From an uncultured Planctomycetaceae bacterium (lineage in GTDB: Bacteria > Planctomycetota > Planctomycetia > Gemmatales > Gemmataceae): 64,000 nucleotides of DNA. The translations under genes and the position numbers were made by a program. Every line of letters begins with the position of its first letter. Positions within the stretch are counted from its first letter, which is position 1. Below the pieces are notes generated by a model. That model was given only the letters and a program-made list of their open reading frames with translations. It was not told the origin of the DNA and searched no databases. The stretch lies in contig CALARU010000312.1 in NCBI GenBank assembly GCA_937888715.1, positions 62,001-126,000 on the forward strand, written 5' to 3'. This document shows, piece by piece, positions 1,972 to 29,971 of the stretch.

Positions 1972-4900
1972 ATGATTGATGTAATTCTTAAACTTTCGCT
2001 TAAATACCGAATTTTCGTTGTCTTGGGGATGCTGGTTTTTGCAGCTTTTTCGCTCTGGATGCTACCATCGCTGACTATCGATGCTTTTCCTGATACCACC
2101 CCCGTTCAAGTTCAAATCAATACCTATGCAATAGGCCTTGCTGCTGAAGAAGTGGAAAGGCAGGTGACCTTTCCCATTGAGCAGGAAATCAATGGTATGC
2201 CCAAACTTAATCAATTGAGATCATTATCGAAATTTGGATTATCCCAGGTGACCGTAACCTTTGAGGATGGGACAAACATTTATTTTGCCCGCCAGCAAGT
2301 TACCGAACGCATAAATAATGCAGTCCTACCAGCAGGGGTGGTAAAACCAACCCTAGGCCCAGTCGCCACCGGTTTAGGCGAAGTTCTCCATTTCATGGTG
2401 CAGCCTGCTTCGCCTGAAACAAGCTTGACAGATGTGCGAACTTTTTTTGATTGGGTAGTTAAGCCCAGCCTCCGGAAAGTCCCCGGAGTCGCAGAAATCA
2501 ATGCTTGGGGTGGCGAAAAAAAACAATACCAGATACGCATTGACCCTGATAGGCTGATTACTTACGACATTTCTTTTGAGCAAGTGGTTGATGCCATCAA
2601 GGCCACCAACATGAATGCTGGGGGAAGCAATATTAACCGGGGGACGGAAACTCTAATCGTCCAGGGAATAGCCCGAACTACAACCTTGGATGAAATCCGC
2701 AATATCGTGGTGGGTATCAAGAAAGACATTCCAATTCAGGTTTCAGATGTTGCTGTCGTAATGGTTGGAAATGACAGCAGATTGGGTGCGATCAGTTACA
2801 TGGGAAAAGGTGAAAGCGTGATGGGCCTAGGTTTTATGCTGATCGGGGAAAGTAGCAATGATGTTACCCACCGGCTTAAGGATAAATATGAAACAATTAA
2901 GGCCAACCTTCCCAAAGATATCAAAATGGATATTGCCTATGACCGCACCGAGTTGGTGGACAAAGTGATCGGTACGGTAAGAGGGAATTTGTTTGAAGGT
3001 GGCCTTCTGGTGATAGCCATTCTCTTTATTTTTTTGGGGAACCTGAGGGCGGGGATTGTAGTTGCAACTGCAATTCCGTTTTCTATGTTTTTTGCATTCA
3101 ATGGAATGATGGCGTTTGGGATCGCAGGAAGTTTATTAAGCTTGGGTGCAATCGATTTTGGGATGGTTGTGGATAGTTCTGTGGTTTTGGTAGAGCACCT
3201 TATGAGTAGGATGGGGGAGGAAGGCGCAGAAAAACGCAACCGACTCGAACTTATTTACGAAGCTGCAATGGAAGTGCGAATGCCCACCCTTTTTGGTGAG
3301 TTAATTATTATCATTGTTTATCTTCCAATTTTGACACTCGAGGGCGTTGAAGGAAAGTTGTTCAGGCCAATGGCCCTTACCGTTGTTTTCGCCCTTGTAG
3401 GTTCCTTGATTTTATCATTAACTCTTATCCCCGCACTTGCCTCGCTGCTTTTGCCCAAGAAAATGAGCCATTCAGTCCCTATTGTTGTTCGAATTGCGAT
3501 TTGGATTTATAAACCCTTATTGAAGTTGGTTTTGAGATTCCGCATTGCTGCAATTCTGATGGTGGTGTGTGTAAGTTTGGTGGCAGTCATGATGGCCAGA
3601 TCGCTTGGATCAGAGTTTATTCCGAAACTTTCGGAGGGTGCGATTGTAATCAATATTTTTAGGCCTGTTGGCACAAGTATCCAAGAAGCAGTGCGTTACA
3701 ATACCAAGTTGGAAAAGATGGTTCTCGCAGCCTTCCCTGATGAAGTAAAAAGGGTTTGGAGCAGACTGGGTTCGCCTGAAGTTGCAACCGACCCAATGGG
3801 CCCTGAAGAAACGGATTTTTTTATTACACTTAATCCCCGAGAGAAATGGACTAAAGCCAAGACACAGGAAGAGCTAATAGGCCTTGTTGATGAATTAATG
3901 AAGCCCTTGATTGGTCAGGAATATTCGTTTACGCAACCCATTGAGCAGCGGGTGAATGAAATGATTTCCGGAGTGCGTGCGGATGTTGCTGTCAAAATAT
4001 TTGGAGATGATTTTGAGGTGCTGAAGAAGAAAGCAGAACAGGTTGAACAAATATTAAAAAACATCCAAGGTGCTGAAGATATACTTGTAGAGCCCGTGAG
4101 CGGGCAGCCAGTGTTGCAGATTAAATTGAAGCAGGAACAACTTGCGATTCATGGTCTTGCTGCCAAAAATGTGCTGCAACATATCGAAACCTTGGGCAGT
4201 CAGCCTTTGGGCGAAATTCTCGAGGGGGAACAACGGTTTCCTTTGGTTGCAAAGTTTCCTGATAATCTCAGATCTAGACCAGAAGCTGTGGGGGCATTAA
4301 TCGTGACAACTGCGAGTGGTGAAAAAATCCCTCTTGCAGGAATTGCAGATATCCAAGAAATTCGCGGACCTTCAAGAATATCTAGAGAGTGGGGGCAGCG
4401 CAGAATAACCATTCAGTGCAATGTTCGAAATCGTGATGTGGGAAGCTTTGTTAATGAAGCGCAGAAGCAAATCAAAACCAAGGTGAGTTTTCCCACAAGC
4501 AGATATAGGGTCGAATGGGGCGGGCAATTCGAACAACTTGCTGCTGCCAAATCCAGACTTGCAGTAATCGTTCCCATTTCACTTTTGATGATTATCTTTC
4601 TTCTTTATCTTACCTATCGAAATATGACCGATACCCTGATTGTTTTTACATCAGTGCCCCTGGCATGCATAGGCGGTGTTGCTGCACTTTGGTTCCGCCA
4701 GATGCCTTTTTCTATATCGGCTGCAGTTGGATTCATCGCCCTTTTTGGCCTTGGGGTCCTTAACGGCATGCTGCTGGTTACTTTTATCAGGCAGTTAAGG
4801 GCGGAAGGGATGGCGTTATTGCAAGCAATAGAAAACGCAGGTGTAACGCGCCTTCGAGCTGTTTTAATGACCGCATTAGTCGCAGGCTTTGGCTTTATTC

Positions 4901-17368: not shown

Positions 17369-18511
17369 TTAAAGGGAGAGTATTTCTTTAAGAGCTGCGA
17401 TTATCTGGTCGATATCGCTTTCGGTATTAAATGCACCAGGGCTGATTCGAACCGAACCATCAGGGAAAGTGTTGATCGATTTGTGGATGTAAGGCGAGCA
17501 ATGCAAGCCCGGCCTTACAGCTATGTTAAAGGCTTCATCAAGAATACTGCCTATTTCAGGTGCAGCAAGTGATTCCGACTGAAAAGAAACAGTTGCAACC
17601 GTACGGCTAAGGTCATCACTTCCAAAAACAGTAACTCCGGGAATTTCTTTAAGATTGCTTCGGAGCTTTGCAACAAGCTTGGTTTCTCTGTGATGAATGT
17701 TGTTCATGCCTTCTTGATCAACCCAAGCTAAACCAGCAGCAAGGCCTGCGATGCCAAGAACATTAGGTGTGCCACCTTCGAGGTGGTACGGCATTTCCTT
17801 GGGTTGTGTTTCAGTGGAAGAGTCGCCTCCGGTTCCACCTTCTCTCCAAGTACGAAGAGCAACGCGATCCCCTGAATAAAGAAAGCCTGTACCAGTGGGT
17901 CCAAAAAGGCACTTGTGTCCAGGGCAAGCTAGGAGATCGATTTTTTGAGCTTTAATATCAATGGGTATAACGCCAGCGGTCTGGGCTCCATCAACTAAAA
18001 AGATGATGTTTTTTTCTCTGCAGATCGTTCCCACTTCGGTGATGGGCTGAATGGTTCCTAGAACATTGCTTGCATGGGTAAGTGCAACAAGTCGGGTTTT
18101 GGGGCCGATTGCATTTTTGATTTGTTCGGGATCGATGAATCCTTGAGAATCGGCATTAATTTTTGTGAGAGAGATTTTGCCTGCGAGTTCCATGATGCGC
18201 AGGGGTCTACTAACGCTGTTGTGTTCAAGATCGGTGGTGATAACATGGTCGCCTTCATTTAAAAGGCCTTTGAACGCCATGTTAAGGGCATCGGTGCAAT
18301 TAAGGGTAAAAATAAAGCGTTCGGGCGCAGAGCCTTTAAAAAGCTGATTGAGCCGATGTCTACAATCATCAAGAGCCCGTTCAGCTGCAAGGGCCATTTT
18401 GTGACCTGCCCGACCGGGGTTTGCCATATCTTCGCGTGCAAAGCGATCCATGGCTTTATAAACCGATTCAGGCTTGGGAAAACTCGTTGCAGCATTATCG
18501 AGATAAATCAT
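17369..18511 (-). CDS. Cysteine desulfurase family PLP enzyme (class V aminotransferase)
   Basis: A 380-residue PLP enzyme that would take sulfur from cysteine as a persulfide. MIYLDNAATSFPKP opens the protein without the longer N-terminus of SufS; the internal-aldimine Lys is K200 in CPGHKCLFGPTGTG; the catalytic Cys is C338 in RPGLHCSPYIH. Short-start desulfurases of this kind form a distinct clade of class V enzymes, some near selenium genes, so selenocysteine lyase activity is possible. It is the last gene of the SAM-riboswitch operon, 24 nt after the MoeB/ThiF-like gene, and would supply sulfur to the carrier. No accompanying scaffold gene is adjacent. Confidence 0.9.
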   Translation of the reverse strand: MIYLDNAATSFPKPESVYKAMDRFAREDMANPGRAGHKMALAAERALDDCRHRLNQLFKGSAPERFIFTLNCTDALNMAFKGLLNEGDHVITTDLEHNSVSRPLRIMELAGKISLTKINADSQGFIDPEQIKNAIGPKTRLVALTHASNVLGTIQPITEVGTICREKNIIFLVDGAQTAGVIPIDIKAQKIDLLACPGHKCLFGPTGTGFLYSGDRVALRTWREGGTGGDSSTETQPKEMPYHLEGGTPNVLGIAGLAAGLAWVDQEGMNNIHHRETKLVAKLRSNLKEIPGVTVFGSDDLSRTVATVSFQSESLAAPEIGSILDEAFNIAVRPGLHCSPYIHKSINTFPDGSVRISPGAFNTESDIDQIIAALKEILSL

Positions 18512-18535: not shown

Positions 18536-19576
18536 TTAGTGTCCGATGTAACGGGCGTAAAGCGTCTTTGCCCTGTCTATATCGCTTGTACCTTTAATGA
18601 TAGCCCGCCCATCGGGAAAAACGGTGAACTCACAGTCTTCAGCATTAAATTTAAGCATAAACTTGTTGAAGCTTACATCGCCCAAGGTCTTAAGTTGAGC
18701 AGCCATATCTTCAAACTTAATTTTGTTTGGCGTACGATTGGAAATTTGAACAGCGTTTCTGCCACACAAACTTGTGGTTTGCGAACCGAACTCGCCATCA
18801 ATCCATTCGAATTTTCGATGCTTGCAGCAAGGGCAATCAACCTTACCTAGAAGCGGAGCAATCTTTACCCTGCGATAGGTGTTTTCCCAAACATCAATCT
18901 GCACGAGTTCTTTGTTGATGGTTTCAGGTTTGCCTGAAAGAATCTTGATGGCTTCGGTGGCTTGCATGCTTGCGATGATGTTTACGACGGGCCCAAGTAC
19001 GCCCGCAGTTTCGCAAGTATCAGCAGAGCCGGGTGAGGGCGCAGCTTCAAACACACAGCGAAGGCAAGGAGTTTGATTCGGGATAATGGTCATGGTCATG
19101 CCATTGCTACCAATCACACCACCATAAACCCATGGCTTGTTATACTTGACTGCAATATCGTTGATGAGATAGCGAATTTCAAAGTTATCGGTGCCATCAA
19201 GAATAAGATCTGCGCCTTCACAAAGTGATTCGATATTGGTGCGATCGATATCGGTGACGACAGATTCGATGTTAATAGAAGAATTGATTGCACGAAGTTT
19301 ACGAGCAGCAGCTTCAGCTTTGGGCAGGTTTTCGGTGACATCGTTTTCATCGAAAAGAACTTGACGCTGAAGATTGCTGGGTTCGATAAAATCGCGATCA
19401 ACAACTTTGATGGAGCCAACGCCAGCCCGAGCAAGGTTGTTGGCAAGCACGGTGCCAAGGGCGCCGCATCCGCACAGGGTGACTTTGGAAGCTAAGAGCT
19501 TACGCTGCCCTTCTTCGCCCACCCCGTGGAAACGCATTTGCCTGCTATAGCGATCAATAGACTTGAAGTCGATCAT
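18536..19576 (-). CDS. MoeB/ThiF-like sulfur-carrier adenylyltransferase
   Basis: A 346-residue E1-like enzyme that adenylates the C-terminal glycine of a MoaD/ThiS protein for thiocarboxylate formation. Visible are GCGALGT (36-42) for ATP binding, DRDFIEPSNLQRQ (60-72), the zinc cysteines C171xxC174 and C248..C251, and the active-site Cys188 in DTCETAG. After residue 255 is a 90-residue tail in place of a rhodanese domain, ending GRAIIKGTSDIDRAKTLYARYIG, a shape often seen in MoeB-like proteins. Its start overlaps the preceding gene by 4 nt. The carrier in the same operon is the obvious partner. Confidence 0.92.
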   Translation of the reverse strand: MIDFKSIDRYSRQMRFHGVGEEGQRKLLASKVTLCGCGALGTVLANNLARAGVGSIKVVDRDFIEPSNLQRQVLFDENDVTENLPKAEAAARKLRAINSSINIESVVTDIDRTNIESLCEGADLILDGTDNFEIRYLINDIAVKYNKPWVYGGVIGSNGMTMTIIPNQTPCLRCVFEAAPSPGSADTCETAGVLGPVVNIIASMQATEAIKILSGKPETINKELVQIDVWENTYRRVKIAPLLGKVDCPCCKHRKFEWIDGEFGSQTTSLCGRNAVQISNRTPNKIKFEDMAAQLKTLGDVSFNKFMLKFNAEDCEFTVFPDGRAIIKGTSDIDRAKTLYARYIGH

Positions 19577-19941
19577 TCGCCATCTCCTACGCCCATGTCA
19601 TCAAGAAAGGTATCAAGAACTTCGACAGTTCCGCCGCCCCATTTTTCTTCGCGAGCAAATGCAGCAAGAACAGCAAGGTCTTCTTTAAGCCTTGCAACTT
19701 CTTTGGCATTTAAGCGCTGAAGGTAGGTTGCAACTTGATCCAAGATTGCAGCACCAGCCTGCTGATTACAAATGTTCTCATCCGAGCCGGCGATGAAAAC
19801 AACAAAATGTAGAAGGCTCAAAAGCAGCGGATTTGCTCCGACCTGATCAGGAATCTCTGGGAAAATTGCGGTTCCTTCTGGAACTTCAATGCTATTTTCG
19901 TCCATATCTTCCATTTCATCCATGTCTTCGTTGTCTGCCAT
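19573..19941 (-). CDS. Acidic protein of unknown function in the sulfur-carrier operon
   Basis: A 122-residue protein I do not recognise. The first 23 residues are strongly acidic and methionine-rich (MADNEDMDEMEDMDENS), then a helical region LLLSLLHFVVFIAGSDENIC and LNAKEVARLKEDLAVLAAF, with a GEGGT-like end. There is a single cysteine (about residue 58), no JAMM metalloprotease motif and no membrane segment. It sits 1 nt after the MoaD/ThiS gene and overlaps the MoeB/ThiF-like gene by 4 nt, so tight coupling suggests it works in the same sulfur-transfer step, perhaps as an adaptor. That is inference from position only. Confidence 0.75.
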   Translation of the reverse strand: MADNEDMDEMEDMDENSIEVPEGTAIFPEIPDQVGANPLLLSLLHFVVFIAGSDENICNQQAGAAILDQVATYLQRLNAKEVARLKEDLAVLAAFAREEKWGGGTVEVLDTFLDDMGVGDGE

Positions 19942-19942
19942 A

Positions 19943-20215
19943 TTAACCTCCTGCTACTGCCGGGATAATTGCTACTTCGTCGCCATCTTTTACAGGAGTG
20001 GCAAGGTTTTCGAGGTAACGCATATCTTCGTCATTGATAAAGATGTTTACAAATCTGCGCAACTGGCCATTATCGAACAGCCGTTGTTCCATTGCTGGGT
20101 GAAGTTTACAAAGTTCGCCAAGTGCTTCGCCTACAGTGATGGCAATAACTTCAACCGAAGCGAGATTGCCCGCATGAGGTCGGAGTGGAGTAGGGATTTG
20201 AATTTTAACTGCCAT
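19943..20215 (-). CDS. MoaD/ThiS-family sulfur carrier protein
   Basis: A 90-residue beta-grasp protein. It begins MAVKIQIPTPLRP, continues VGEALGELCKLHPAMEQRLF and INDEDMRYLENLATPVKDGDEVAIIPAVAGG. The C-terminus is a free Gly-Gly as in MoaD and ThiS, so no proteolytic trimming is needed before adenylation. In this family the Gly carboxylate becomes a thiocarboxylate that donates sulfide. No molybdopterin or thiazole genes are near; the operon partners are a threonine-synthase-like enzyme, a MoeB/ThiF activator and a desulfurase. That context resembles the CysO and HcyS carriers of amino-acid sulfur assimilation. Confidence 0.93.
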   Translation of the reverse strand: MAVKIQIPTPLRPHAGNLASVEVIAITVGEALGELCKLHPAMEQRLFDNGQLRRFVNIFINDEDMRYLENLATPVKDGDEVAIIPAVAGG

Positions 20216-20269: not shown

Positions 20270-21529
20270 TTAAGCAAGAACAGGTTCTTGGGTATTTTCC
20301 ATGGTGGCTACGAACTCGTCGAGCGAGGTTCCAATGGTAACAGGTTCGCCTAGTTGAGTCGCTAGGGAATCCTGCGTTTTAAGACCATTGCCTGTAATGA
20401 GGAGAACGATTTCTTCATTTTTGGGAATACGGCCCTGCTCGACCAATTTGCGAGCGGTTGCGACAGTAACTCCACCTGCTGTTTCAGCAAACACGCCTTC
20501 AGTTTTTGCAAGTAAAAGCATGCCTTCCCTGATTTCATCATCGGTAACATCTTCGGCCCAGCCACCGCTTTCGCGAATAAGCTTGGCAGCGAAGTAGCCA
20601 TCTGCAGGGTCGCCAATTGCGAGTGATTTGCAAATAGTGTTTGGTTTCCGAACAGGGCGATGAGATTCCCAGCCGTTTTTTACTGCTCCACTGATTGGGT
20701 TACAGCCTGTGGCTTGGGCACCATAAAACTTGGTGGAGGGTTCCTGCTTAAGAAGGTCGATTTTGTAAAGTTCTTGGAAGGCCTTGCTGACTTTGCCAAC
20801 AAGTGCACCACCAGCCATCGGGCTGACCACATGCTGGGGCGTTCGCCAGCCCAGTTGTTCTGCAATTTCAAAGCCCATGGATTTAGAACCTTCGGCATAA
20901 AATGGACGGAGGTTGATGTTCACAAATCCCCAGCCATATTTAAACGCCACCTGAGTGCAAAGCCTGTTTACTTCGTCGTAGGTGCCACGCACTTTAATCA
21001 CATTGGCGCCATAAACCGAGGTCCCCATCACCTTGGCTCTTTCAAGATCAGAGGGAATAAAGATATAGCTTTGCATTCCAGCTGCAGCAGCATTAGCTGC
21101 AACACTATTGGCGAGATTTCCGGTAGAGGCGCAGCCTACGGTTTTCAAACCAAACTCATGGGCTTTGCTTAATGCAACTGCAACCACACGATCCTTGAAG
21201 GAAAGGGTGGGGAAGTTGACCGCATCATTTTTTATCCATAGATTCTTGACCCCGATTTCTTTTGCCAGGCGGTCTGCTCGAATTAAAGGTGTGCCACCAA
21301 CATGCAATCCTACGGTGGGTTCACCATCAATGGGTAGCAGTTCTTGATAGCGCCACATGTTGAAGGTGCGGGCTTCTAATTTTTCTTTGGTAAGAACGCC
21401 TTTTAGGCCTTCATAATCATAATCGATTTCCAATGGCCCGAAATCGTCCTGGCAGAAATTGACAGGGGTTACGGGGTATAATTTGCCACACAAGCGGCAC
21501 TTCATGCCTTTTACAAAACTGGAAGACAC
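20270..21529 (-). CDS. Threonine-synthase-like PLP enzyme under SAM riboswitch control
   Basis: A 419-residue fold-type II PLP enzyme. An N-terminal zinc-ribbon reads MKCRLCGKLYPVTPVNFC; the PLP Lys is in PTLSFKDR (residue 112) and the phosphate loop in CASTGNLANS, both typical of threonine synthase, which turns O-phosphohomoserine into threonine. I start at a GTG preceded by GGAGGA with 8-nt spacing; a frame opening further upstream would be translated riboswitch. The next gene is a sulfur carrier 54 nt on. The riboswitch and the carrier raise the alternative that it makes homocysteine from O-phosphohomoserine and a thiocarboxylate. Sequence alone does not choose. Confidence 0.88.
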   Translation of the reverse strand: MSSSFVKGMKCRLCGKLYPVTPVNFCQDDFGPLEIDYDYEGLKGVLTKEKLEARTFNMWRYQELLPIDGEPTVGLHVGGTPLIRADRLAKEIGVKNLWIKNDAVNFPTLSFKDRVVAVALSKAHEFGLKTVGCASTGNLANSVAANAAAAGMQSYIFIPSDLERAKVMGTSVYGANVIKVRGTYDEVNRLCTQVAFKYGWGFVNINLRPFYAEGSKSMGFEIAEQLGWRTPQHVVSPMAGGALVGKVSKAFQELYKIDLLKQEPSTKFYGAQATGCNPISGAVKNGWESHRPVRKPNTICKSLAIGDPADGYFAAKLIRESGGWAEDVTDDEIREGMLLLAKTEGVFAETAGGVTVATARKLVEQGRIPKNEEIVLLITGNGLKTQDSLATQLGEPVTIGTSLDEFVATMENTQEPVLA

Positions 21530-21642
21530 TTGTCTTTCCTCCATATACGCAGGACAATAACCTGCAATAAAATTGGTAGTCTTTTCCAGAGGAGGATATT
21601 TAAGCTTGGAGATAAAAAAGGGGCATACAGTAAGTACGACAC

Positions 21643-21760
21643 TTCTTATCTCTCCCGGCAAACCCGGGTAGGAGGTAGCACCAGCATCGTTGCGAGTAAA
21701 CGCTTCGACCGGTTGCTGTGGCTTCGACGGGCCTAATCCCTCTGCCACTCTGGATAAGAA
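21643..21760 (-). ncRNA. SAM-I (S-box) riboswitch
   Basis: Read on the minus strand, the element opens with CUUAUCCAGAG, then GGCAGAGGGAUUAGGCCC, GAAGCCACAGCAACC, GGUGCUACCUCC and closes GAGAGAUAAG, matching the conserved S-box strings in order. P1 is an 8-bp pairing between 21643-21650 and 21753-21760. SAM binding normally represses methionine or sulfur genes. It lies 113 nt upstream of the threonine-synthase-like GTG. The 3' strand of P1 (GAGAUAAGAA) can instead pair with a downstream UUUUUUAUCUC at about 21610-21620, a plausible alternative structure. A second hairpin (GCAGG/CCUGC, 21549-21565) lies closer to the start. Confidence 0.95.
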
Positions 21761-21780
21761 ACTCACCAAATTGTTCTAAT

Positions 21781-21809
21781 AATATATTCTGTATTGTGAC
21801 AATCAGCAA
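21781..21809 (-). promoter_or_regulatory. Candidate promoter of the SAM-riboswitch operon
   Basis: TTGCTG at 21804-21809 and TATATT at 21781-21786 are separated by 17 nt; transcription would begin near 21774, about 14 nt before the riboswitch P1 stem. Confidence 0.5.
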
Positions 21810-21922
21810 TCGATAAACCGAGAAAATATCAAAATCCTTTGAATTCTTCATTACCTTGAGTCGCTAAATTGCTAAATCACGGTACTGTTTAACATTGTTT
21901 AATCAAAAAGGAGTGGATTTCT

Positions 21923-23023
21923 TTAGTCTTCATCGTCATCGGAATCAACCCAGTCTGGAAGAGGTGGGGGTGTCATCAGATCGAGTTCGAGAAGAACAGT
22001 CATCGCAGAATCAGGCCTATTATCTTTAGACTTGTTCATCATGCGTTCGACCAATTCCACAAACCAATCGGAAAGATCGGTGCGGAAATTCGTGATGGGT
22101 TCAGATTTTTCCTTACTGCGTTGAGCTTTGATTTTGTCTTTCTTCTCTAAGCCTGGGTAAGGTAGTTTTCCGGTTAAGGCATGATAAAAAGTGCACCCCA
22201 ATCCATAAAGGTCGGCTCTGCCATCGATCTCGACGGAGTTGTAGGATTGCTCCGGTGCAATGTAATCCATGGTGCCCACAATGTAGCCCTTGCCGCCAAT
22301 GATTTTAAGATCTTCATCTTTTTCACCTTGGACAAATGCCAACCCAAAGTCAAACAACTTTGCTTGGTTTTCAGGGGTTACCATGATGTTTGAAGGCTTG
22401 ATATCGCGGTGGATAACGCCGTATTGATGGCAATGAGCAAGAGCCGTCAAAGTATGGCGCATCAACTTGATAGCAAGATCCTGAGAGATTGCGCCGGATT
22501 CGTCGATGATTTTTTGGAGTGATTTGCCTTGGATGAATTCGATGAGCATGTAGTTGAGCCCTGCGAAATCTTCTAAGCTGAAAACCTTAACGACATTGGG
22601 GTGATCAAGTTTCTGGGCGATGTAAAATTCTCTTTTAAACCGGGCGATGAGTCTGTCTTGCCTTTCGGTTTTGAGATTGCGAAGCACCTTCATGCTAACG
22701 AAGTTTAATTTATCATCATTTTTTCTGGCGAGGTAAACGGTGCTCATTCCACCTCTACCCAGAACAGAAAGCACTTGGTACTCTTTCATCACCAAGCCAC
22801 GGGATTTACCTTTTAATATTCGCTCTGCTTGAAATTTGGTGATCTTTCCTGCCTTCACTAAATATTCTGCGATGAGGTTGGGTTCGCTTCGGATGGTTTT
22901 ATCAAGGTTGTTATAAAGCACAACAACTTCCACCTTGTCCATCAATTTGCTGCGCATGAGGGACATGAGGAAGTCGCCTACATTGACTTCAGGGTTTGAT
23001 TTTTCAGGATCTGGGGGGCTCAT
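21923..23023 (-). CDS. Soluble Ser/Thr protein kinase (Hanks type)
   Basis: A 366-residue protein kinase. Residues 15-75 form an N-terminal helical domain common before planctomycete kinases (IAEYLVKAGKITKFQAERIL). The kinase domain has LGRGGMSTVYLA (88-99), the ATP Lys K112 in FVSMKVL, the catalytic loop HRDIKPSN (205-212) and DFGLA (225-229), then GTMDYIAPEQ. No transmembrane segment or sensory C-terminus is present; the tail is acidic (DWVDSDDDED). It stands between the SAM-riboswitch operon and pheT on the same strand. Substrates are unknown. Confidence 0.93.
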   Translation of the reverse strand: MSPPDPEKSNPEVNVGDFLMSLMRSKLMDKVEVVVLYNNLDKTIRSEPNLIAEYLVKAGKITKFQAERILKGKSRGLVMKEYQVLSVLGRGGMSTVYLARKNDDKLNFVSMKVLRNLKTERQDRLIARFKREFYIAQKLDHPNVVKVFSLEDFAGLNYMLIEFIQGKSLQKIIDESGAISQDLAIKLMRHTLTALAHCHQYGVIHRDIKPSNIMVTPENQAKLFDFGLAFVQGEKDEDLKIIGGKGYIVGTMDYIAPEQSYNSVEIDGRADLYGLGCTFYHALTGKLPYPGLEKKDKIKAQRSKEKSEPITNFRTDLSDWFVELVERMMNKSKDNRPDSAMTVLLELDLMTPPPLPDWVDSDDDED

Positions 23024-29558: not shown

Positions 29559-29971
29559 TTCACAAGCTGGTTGGATAGTCGCTGCTGCTTTGAAAAAAGC
29601 GGGAGAGGAAAGTCCGGGCTCCATAGGACACGGTGGTGGGTAACTCCCACCGTCCGAAGTAACATACTTAACTGTGTGTTGCGTAAGGGTAGGGAAAGTG
29701 CAACAGAAAGATACCGCCCCAAAAGGGTAAGGGTGAAATGGCGGGGGAATGCAAATTCCTTAATGTAAGAGCCCACCAGCAGCCTGGTGACAGGCTGGCT
29801 CGGCAAACCCCACCGGGAGCAAGGCCAAATAAGAAGGAAGGACTGGTCCGGTCCGTTTGACCTTCGGGTAGGTCGCTCGAGCGTTCGGGTAACCGTTCGC
29901 CTAGATAAATGGCTATCTTCTTGCCTTTTTAAGGCAAGATACAGAACCCGGCTTATAGGCTGGCTTGTGAA
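29559..29971 (+). ncRNA. rnpB: RNase P RNA, bacterial type A
   Basis: The catalytic RNA that trims tRNA 5' leaders. Signature strings are in order: GAGGAAAGUCCGGGCUCC in the 5' half, then AACCCCACCGGGAGCAA, UAGAUAAAUGGCUA and ACAGAACCCGGCUUA in the 3' half. The ends pair as P1 (uucacaagc with gcuugugaa). Length about 413 nt. The U-rich tail directly after P1 runs into the stop codon of the convergent DUF1501 gene, so the two 3' ends overlap. Confidence 0.97.

Follow-up and report, generated by a model that had tools for sequence, protein, structure and literature searches.

A SAM-I aptamer and the operon behind it

The window (the whole 64,000-nt stretch of DNA analyzed) carries a SAM-I (S-box) aptamer on its minus strand, followed on the same strand by thrCx, thiSx, a gene for a 122-aa protein, thiFx, and csdx, in this order (Table 1). 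The genes are tightly spaced, with stop-to-start distances of 54 nt, 1 nt, a 4-nt overlap, and 24 nt along the operon, and the aptamer lies 113 nt upstream of thrCx. The start of thrCx was placed at the GTG at 21529, which has GGAGGA just 5′ of it, rather than at the TTG that opens the longest ORF. Elsewhere, the window contains an RNase P class A RNA gene at 29563–29971 (+), with 266.6 bits.

Table 1. Positions of the riboswitch features and operon genes within the window
Feature	Positions	Strand	Basis
SAM-I (S-box) aptamer, RF00162	21643..21760	(-)	80.1 bits vs gathering score 44.4
Predicted anti-P1 strand CUUUUUUAUCUC, can pair with the 3′ P1 strand GAGAUAAGAAG	21609..21620	(-)	Minimum-free-energy fold; folds of 7 genus members
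Predicted anti-Shine-Dalgarno strand UCCUCC	21591..21596	(-)	Conserved in genus
Shine-Dalgarno GGAGGA of thrCx	21537..21542	(-)	Sequence
thrCx, PLP enzyme named threonine synthase, MetM-like, GTG start	20270..21529	(-)	PF00291, TIGR00260, clade, signature
thiSx, ThiS/MoaD-type sulfur carrier ending Ala-Gly-Gly, MetO/CysO-like	19943..20215	(-)	PF02597
122-aa four-helix protein	19573..19941	(-)	Found just in Gemmataceae-type loci
thiFx, ThiF/MoeB-type E1, predicted thiSx activator	18536..19576	(-)	PF00899; PRK12475 388.7 bits
csdx, cysteine desulfurase family protein	17369..18511	(-)	TIGR01977, above cut-off

An Rfam scan of the whole window matched RF00162 at 21760–21643 (−) over the full length of the model (positions 1–108, E = 3e-17) and above the gathering threshold, and these are exactly the coordinates at which the original prediction had placed a SAM-I riboswitch. 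The 8-bp P1 that had been proposed to close the element is present, with the strands UUCUUAUC and GAUAAGAA. The element has P1–P4, varies in the P3 loop in the usual way only, and is the single RF00162 match in the 4.56-Mb genome. Across 22 SAM-I sequences of relatives, 98.3% of the consensus-structure cells held standard pairs, versus 36–46% when the partners were slid. Most consensus pairs were invariant among these sequences, and 3 both-side pair changes were observed against 1.2 expected from shuffles (at least 3 in 20 of 500 shuffles). The element is a real, ordinary SAM-I riboswitch located on what is most likely a methionine-pathway operon, and it would be expected to bind SAM.

The product of thrCx exceeded the cut-off of the TIGR00260 ‘threonine synthase’ model (277 bits); the class that the original prediction had given to the first downstream gene is thus right as a label. 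The sulfur-carrier machinery that it had described behind this gene was also recovered, namely ThiS, a ThiF/MoeB-type E1, and a cysteine desulfurase. The best solved relatives of thiSx were CysO of Mycobacterium tuberculosis (3dwg, 1.7e-20) and the ThiS/MoaD-family protein 4n6e, and thiFx carries a C-terminal extension of ~90 aa. The 122-aa protein had no Pfam, NCBIfam, or PDB match, and a fold search with its predicted model (pLDDT 86.9) returned nothing with E below 2. It is fairly variable (36–52% identity) and has no conserved catalytic residues.

Within the class, thrCx was present in 59 of 119 genomes and was confined to the family and order of the window and two further families; SAM-I was found in 47 of 59 relatives. 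Wherever both were located (22 planctomycete genomes), SAM-I preceded thrCx on the same strand in every case, at a distance of 98–400 nt and once of 940 nt. Downstream of thrCx, 20 loci of relatives contained thiSx (19/20), thiFx (19/20), and csdx (16/20), while the 122-aa gene occurred at 8 of the 9 loci of the window's family and at none of the 11 others. One Gemmataceae genome (G036; loci L080 and L104) keeps SAM-I and thrCx, and the carrier, E1, and desulfurase were not found adjoining.

Predicted control at the thrCx Shine-Dalgarno site

Switching was modeled in ViennaRNA folds in which P1 was removed by energy penalties. In the P1-less fold, the 3′ P1 strand was predicted to pair with CUUUUUUAUCUC and the 5′ P1 strand with CUCUGGAAAAG. 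The Shine-Dalgarno site was unpaired at 0.27–0.46 without P1 versus 0.03–0.15 with P1 in all seven genus members (close relatives), and UCCUCC was its commonest predicted partner when P1 was enforced, with UCUCC taking this place in one of the seven (L022). For the three members tested, 4, 6, and 1 of 150 shuffled platforms showed a drop in accessibility as large as the observed one, and the P1-less fold was unusually stable, being matched by 1, 0, and 6 of 150 shuffled platforms. This sequestration pattern was absent from 20 more distant leaders (mean difference −0.03), and translational control is therefore claimed for the window's genus only. In this genus, closure of P1 would release UCCUCC or UCUCC to cover the Shine-Dalgarno site of thrCx, while in the absence of SAM both P1 strands would pair downstream and leave the site freer. 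The folds suggest that SAM probably represses the operon at translation here. Relative to the usual SAM-I element, the window element would differ in having an expression platform predicted to hide the Shine-Dalgarno site, without a terminator.

Many SAM-I elements in Bacillota act as transcription terminators, and a CUUUUUU tract lies 3′ of the aptamer, so that the homocysteine pathway proposed below might be controlled by transcription termination instead of Shine-Dalgarno sequestration. We consider this rather unlikely, since a terminator scan of 21400–22000 in the window was empty and the constrained folds of the genus members favor sequestration. No terminator was found in two distant leaders either.

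Identity of the enzyme encoded by thrCx

In an unrooted tree, the thrCx clade was separated from 10 comparison enzymes with a split support of 0.999. The signature L138, N205, R207, Y210, and ETAGG (residues counted from codon 2 after the GTG start) was fixed or nearly so among 102 clade members and occurred as a set in none of the 10 comparison enzymes. All 102 members contained [ST]TGNL and N-[IV]-N-x-R, as well as a Tyr at the position that holds Arg in 9 of the 10 comparison enzymes, and nearly all contained ETAGG and TGNGLKT. The substrate-site motifs of ThrC were not found in thrCx, which reads STGNL and N-I-N-L-R-P-F-Y-A-E-G-S-K versus STGNT and N-S-x-N-P-x-R-x-E-G-Q-K in characterized ThrC. 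Compared with the Aquifex, Thermus, and Bacillus enzymes, T is changed to L138, S to N205, R to Y210, and GNAGN to AGGAL. The altered Arg and Thr positions are presumably those that bind the substrate phosphate in Thermus threonine synthase; the invariant Arg207, three residues off, could take over this role in the thrCx clade. Judged by its motifs and its place in the tree, thrCx falls outside the canonical threonine synthases and belongs to a separate clade.

A different function is suggested by Streptomyces albulus, in which MetM is described as the synthase that makes homocysteine from O-phosphohomoserine, accompanied by a sulfur-carrier gene, metO, and preceded by a SAM riboswitch (PMC12172450, citing Hasebe et al. 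2024; we follow the citing paper's account). A locus of the actinomycete Nonomuraea gerenzanensis contains, in order, SAM-I at 3816–3957 (68.7 bits), a thrCx homologue (48.8% identical) with the signature residues, and a ThiS ending in AGG. Because this order matches the one reported for Streptomyces MetM/MetO in that account, we call the window pair MetM/MetO-like. By this likeness, drawn through the Nonomuraea locus and the citing paper, thrCx is most likely a MetM-type homocysteine-making enzyme. The original prediction had found it odd that a SAM-I riboswitch should precede a threonine synthase gene. The arrangement stands, but it most likely does not mean SAM control of threonine synthesis: since thrCx is probably a homologue of the MetM type, and since MetM/MetO has been reported to be under SAM control in Streptomyces by the same account (PMC12172450), the target is most likely a methionine-pathway gene, as is normal for SAM-I, and the mismatch is mostly an error of gene naming.

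It has also to be considered that thrCx might be a true second threonine synthase, through which SAM would repress threonine synthesis and so balance the O-phosphohomoserine branch. Its TIGR00260 score is in line with this, as is the in vitro threonine synthase and threonine deaminase activity of a cyanobacterial MetM homologue, a MetM-like ThrC that gives threonine from O-phosphohomoserine (PMC12172450). However, the window's own genome already has a canonical ThrC, adjoining dapB, thrCx lacks the residues common to the Aquifex, Thermus, and Bacillus enzymes, and a constant sulfur-carrier neighbor would make no sense for threonine. A second threonine synthase is thus improbable, and we retain the MetM-type assignment.

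Scanning 84,980 species genomes yielded at least 569 thrCx relatives, of which the best 80 loci were used for counts. These include Planctomycetota, deltaproteobacterial lineages, Mariprofundus, Verrucomicrobiota, Dadabacteria, Nitrospinota, Omnitrophota, Armatimonadota, and others. Among these best 80 of at least 569, a ThiS carrier adjoined or lay close to the thrCx-type gene in 74, and 52 had SAM-I upstream of it, in 50 cases no more than 400 nt away. Four of the 28 loci without SAM-I have less than 500 nt of upstream sequence, and no other riboswitch class was found in 12 loci lacking SAM-I. Across phyla, again among the best 80, the carrier's constant partner was thrCx, while thiFx and csdx varied. 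A Gly-Gly end was present in 55 of 82 standalone carriers. This would explain why, in very many genomes, a SAM riboswitch lies before a gene named ‘threonine synthase’, such genes probably being mis-named MetM-type homocysteine synthases.

Methionine pathway genes and the proposed sulfur route

For a canonical GHMP homoserine kinase, the window's own genome gave no more than weak matches; the TIGR02535 type was therefore searched, and a proposed homoserine kinase of this type was found (492 bits, cut-off 446). A full-length MetH was also present (1578 bits). The genome gave no match to MetX or MetA and none to MetY above cut-off. The other 25 sampled genomes of the family likewise gave no MetA and no MetY above cut-off, and their MetX matches were at most weak, of a kind typical of unrelated hydrolases; the same searches did detect MetX and MetY in sister families. 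Recognized MetX, MetA, or MetY was thus found in 0 of the 26 sampled genomes of the family and thrCx in all 26, and the operon would fill this apparent gap in the methionine pathway of Gemmataceae.

The genome encodes a single full-length PLP enzyme of the Cys/Met type (locus L005, 1483–2628), which reached the cut-off of none of the NCBIfam models listed and whose gene adjoins a homospermidine/deoxyhypusine synthase-like gene. This enzyme may act as a cystathionine synthase or lyase, and it could provide a second homocysteine route in this genome. A strict either/or relation between the operon and MetX/MetY was ruled out by several Isosphaeraceae-type genomes having both, with strong matches, so that in such relatives the operon is not always the sole homocysteine route. 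In seven other families of Planctomycetia, many genomes showed no thrCx and no strong match to MetX, MetA, or MetY.

We consider it quite probable that the SAM-I element serves as the OFF switch of a homocysteine operon of the MetM/MetO type, with the MetM link drawn partly from the citing paper. From the computed aptamer, operon, gene families, conservation, and missing MetX, MetA, and MetY, we infer the substrate, the order of sulfur transfer, SAM binding, and the level of control as follows. The desulfurase csdx would draw sulfur from cysteine, and thiFx would adenylate the C-terminal Gly-Gly of the carrier, leading to a thiocarboxylate. The carrier sulfur would then replace the phosphate of O-phosphohomoserine on thrCx to give homocysteine, which MetH would methylate to methionine, the precursor of SAM; ample SAM would close P1, and the operon would be repressed. 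Since thiSx already ends in Gly-Gly, a trimming protease should be unneeded here, and since a cysteine desulfurase lies within the operon, cysteine would be the donor and net cysteine synthesis by the operon is unlikely. It is also conceivable, and to us nearly an even matter, that this one riboswitch governs a complete protein-borne transsulfuration, from cysteine through persulfide and carrier thiocarboxylate to homocysteine, which would be the only homocysteine source in Gemmataceae in place of the cystathionine and acyl-homoserine routes, aided by the 122-aa protein as a lineage-specific helical scaffold.

Two other uses of the carrier were weighed against homocysteine synthesis. The operon might make cysteine from O-phosphoserine via a protein thiocarboxylate, like CysM/CysO of M. 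tuberculosis, to which the CysO-like carrier and the PALP fold of thrCx would correspond. This is very improbable, because thrCx groups with threonine synthases, far from CysK/CysM (cysKM model 48 bits), the desulfurase implies cysteine as donor and not as product, and SAM-I control points to methionine. ThiS/ThiF/desulfurase modules also act in thiamine, molybdopterin, and tRNA thiolation, and the operon might serve one of these with thrCx as a hitchhiker; yet it contains no thiG, thiH, moaE, or tRNA thiolase gene, and across phyla it is thrCx that stays with the carrier, thiFx and csdx being the less constant parts, which makes this the least probable use of all.

Homocysteine synthesis from a carrier thiocarboxylate, our preferred reading, has known counterparts. 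With S. albulus MetM/MetO, the operon shares the upstream SAM riboswitch, the threonine-synthase-like PLP enzyme, and the sulfur-carrier gene; it differs in phylum and may also differ in holding its own E1, cysteine desulfurase, and helical protein. The Wolinella HcyS/MetY system likewise has a carrier thiocarboxylate as sulfur donor for homocysteine, and we take its enzyme to be MetY, of the Cys/Met-type PLP fold, and its carrier to be trimmed by a metalloprotease, whereas the window operon has a PALP-fold enzyme (PF00291, no PF01053 MetY) and a carrier already ending in Gly-Gly. The CysM/CysO/Mec system of M. tuberculosis has in common a PALP enzyme with a CysO-like carrier; its product is cysteine, and a JAMM protease is encoded in the operon. 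Operons of this type have been described (PMC1779556). The window operon differs in its product, which would be homocysteine, and in its PALP subfamily, and profile searches found neither a CysM-type enzyme nor a JAMM protease in it. What is new here is the extent, that is, a dedicated E1 and desulfurase under one switch, a new phylum, and probably wide mis-annotation, and the self-contained operon offers a test case for thiocarboxylate-dependent homocysteine synthesis.

A JAMM gene is present elsewhere in the window's own genome, outside the operon. Among the loci beyond the class, eight deltaproteobacterial and related loci contain ThiS ORFs of 171 aa, in which a MetO-like carrier continues, beyond its AGG, into a further domain, identified by Pfam in one of them (L126) as NIL (PF09383). 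A JAB protease gene follows the fused carrier in L126 and apparently also in L121. NIL domains of MetN transporters bind methionine, and the domain composition together with the JAB gene therefore suggests that fused carriers may undergo proteolytic maturation and be subject to methionine feedback. Mariprofundus-type loci have a small ORF after the carrier (L117, 2475–2759; L157, 2018–2257), followed by a further PALP gene; this ORF was tested in L117 and is a NIL domain, and its L157 counterpart looks alike.
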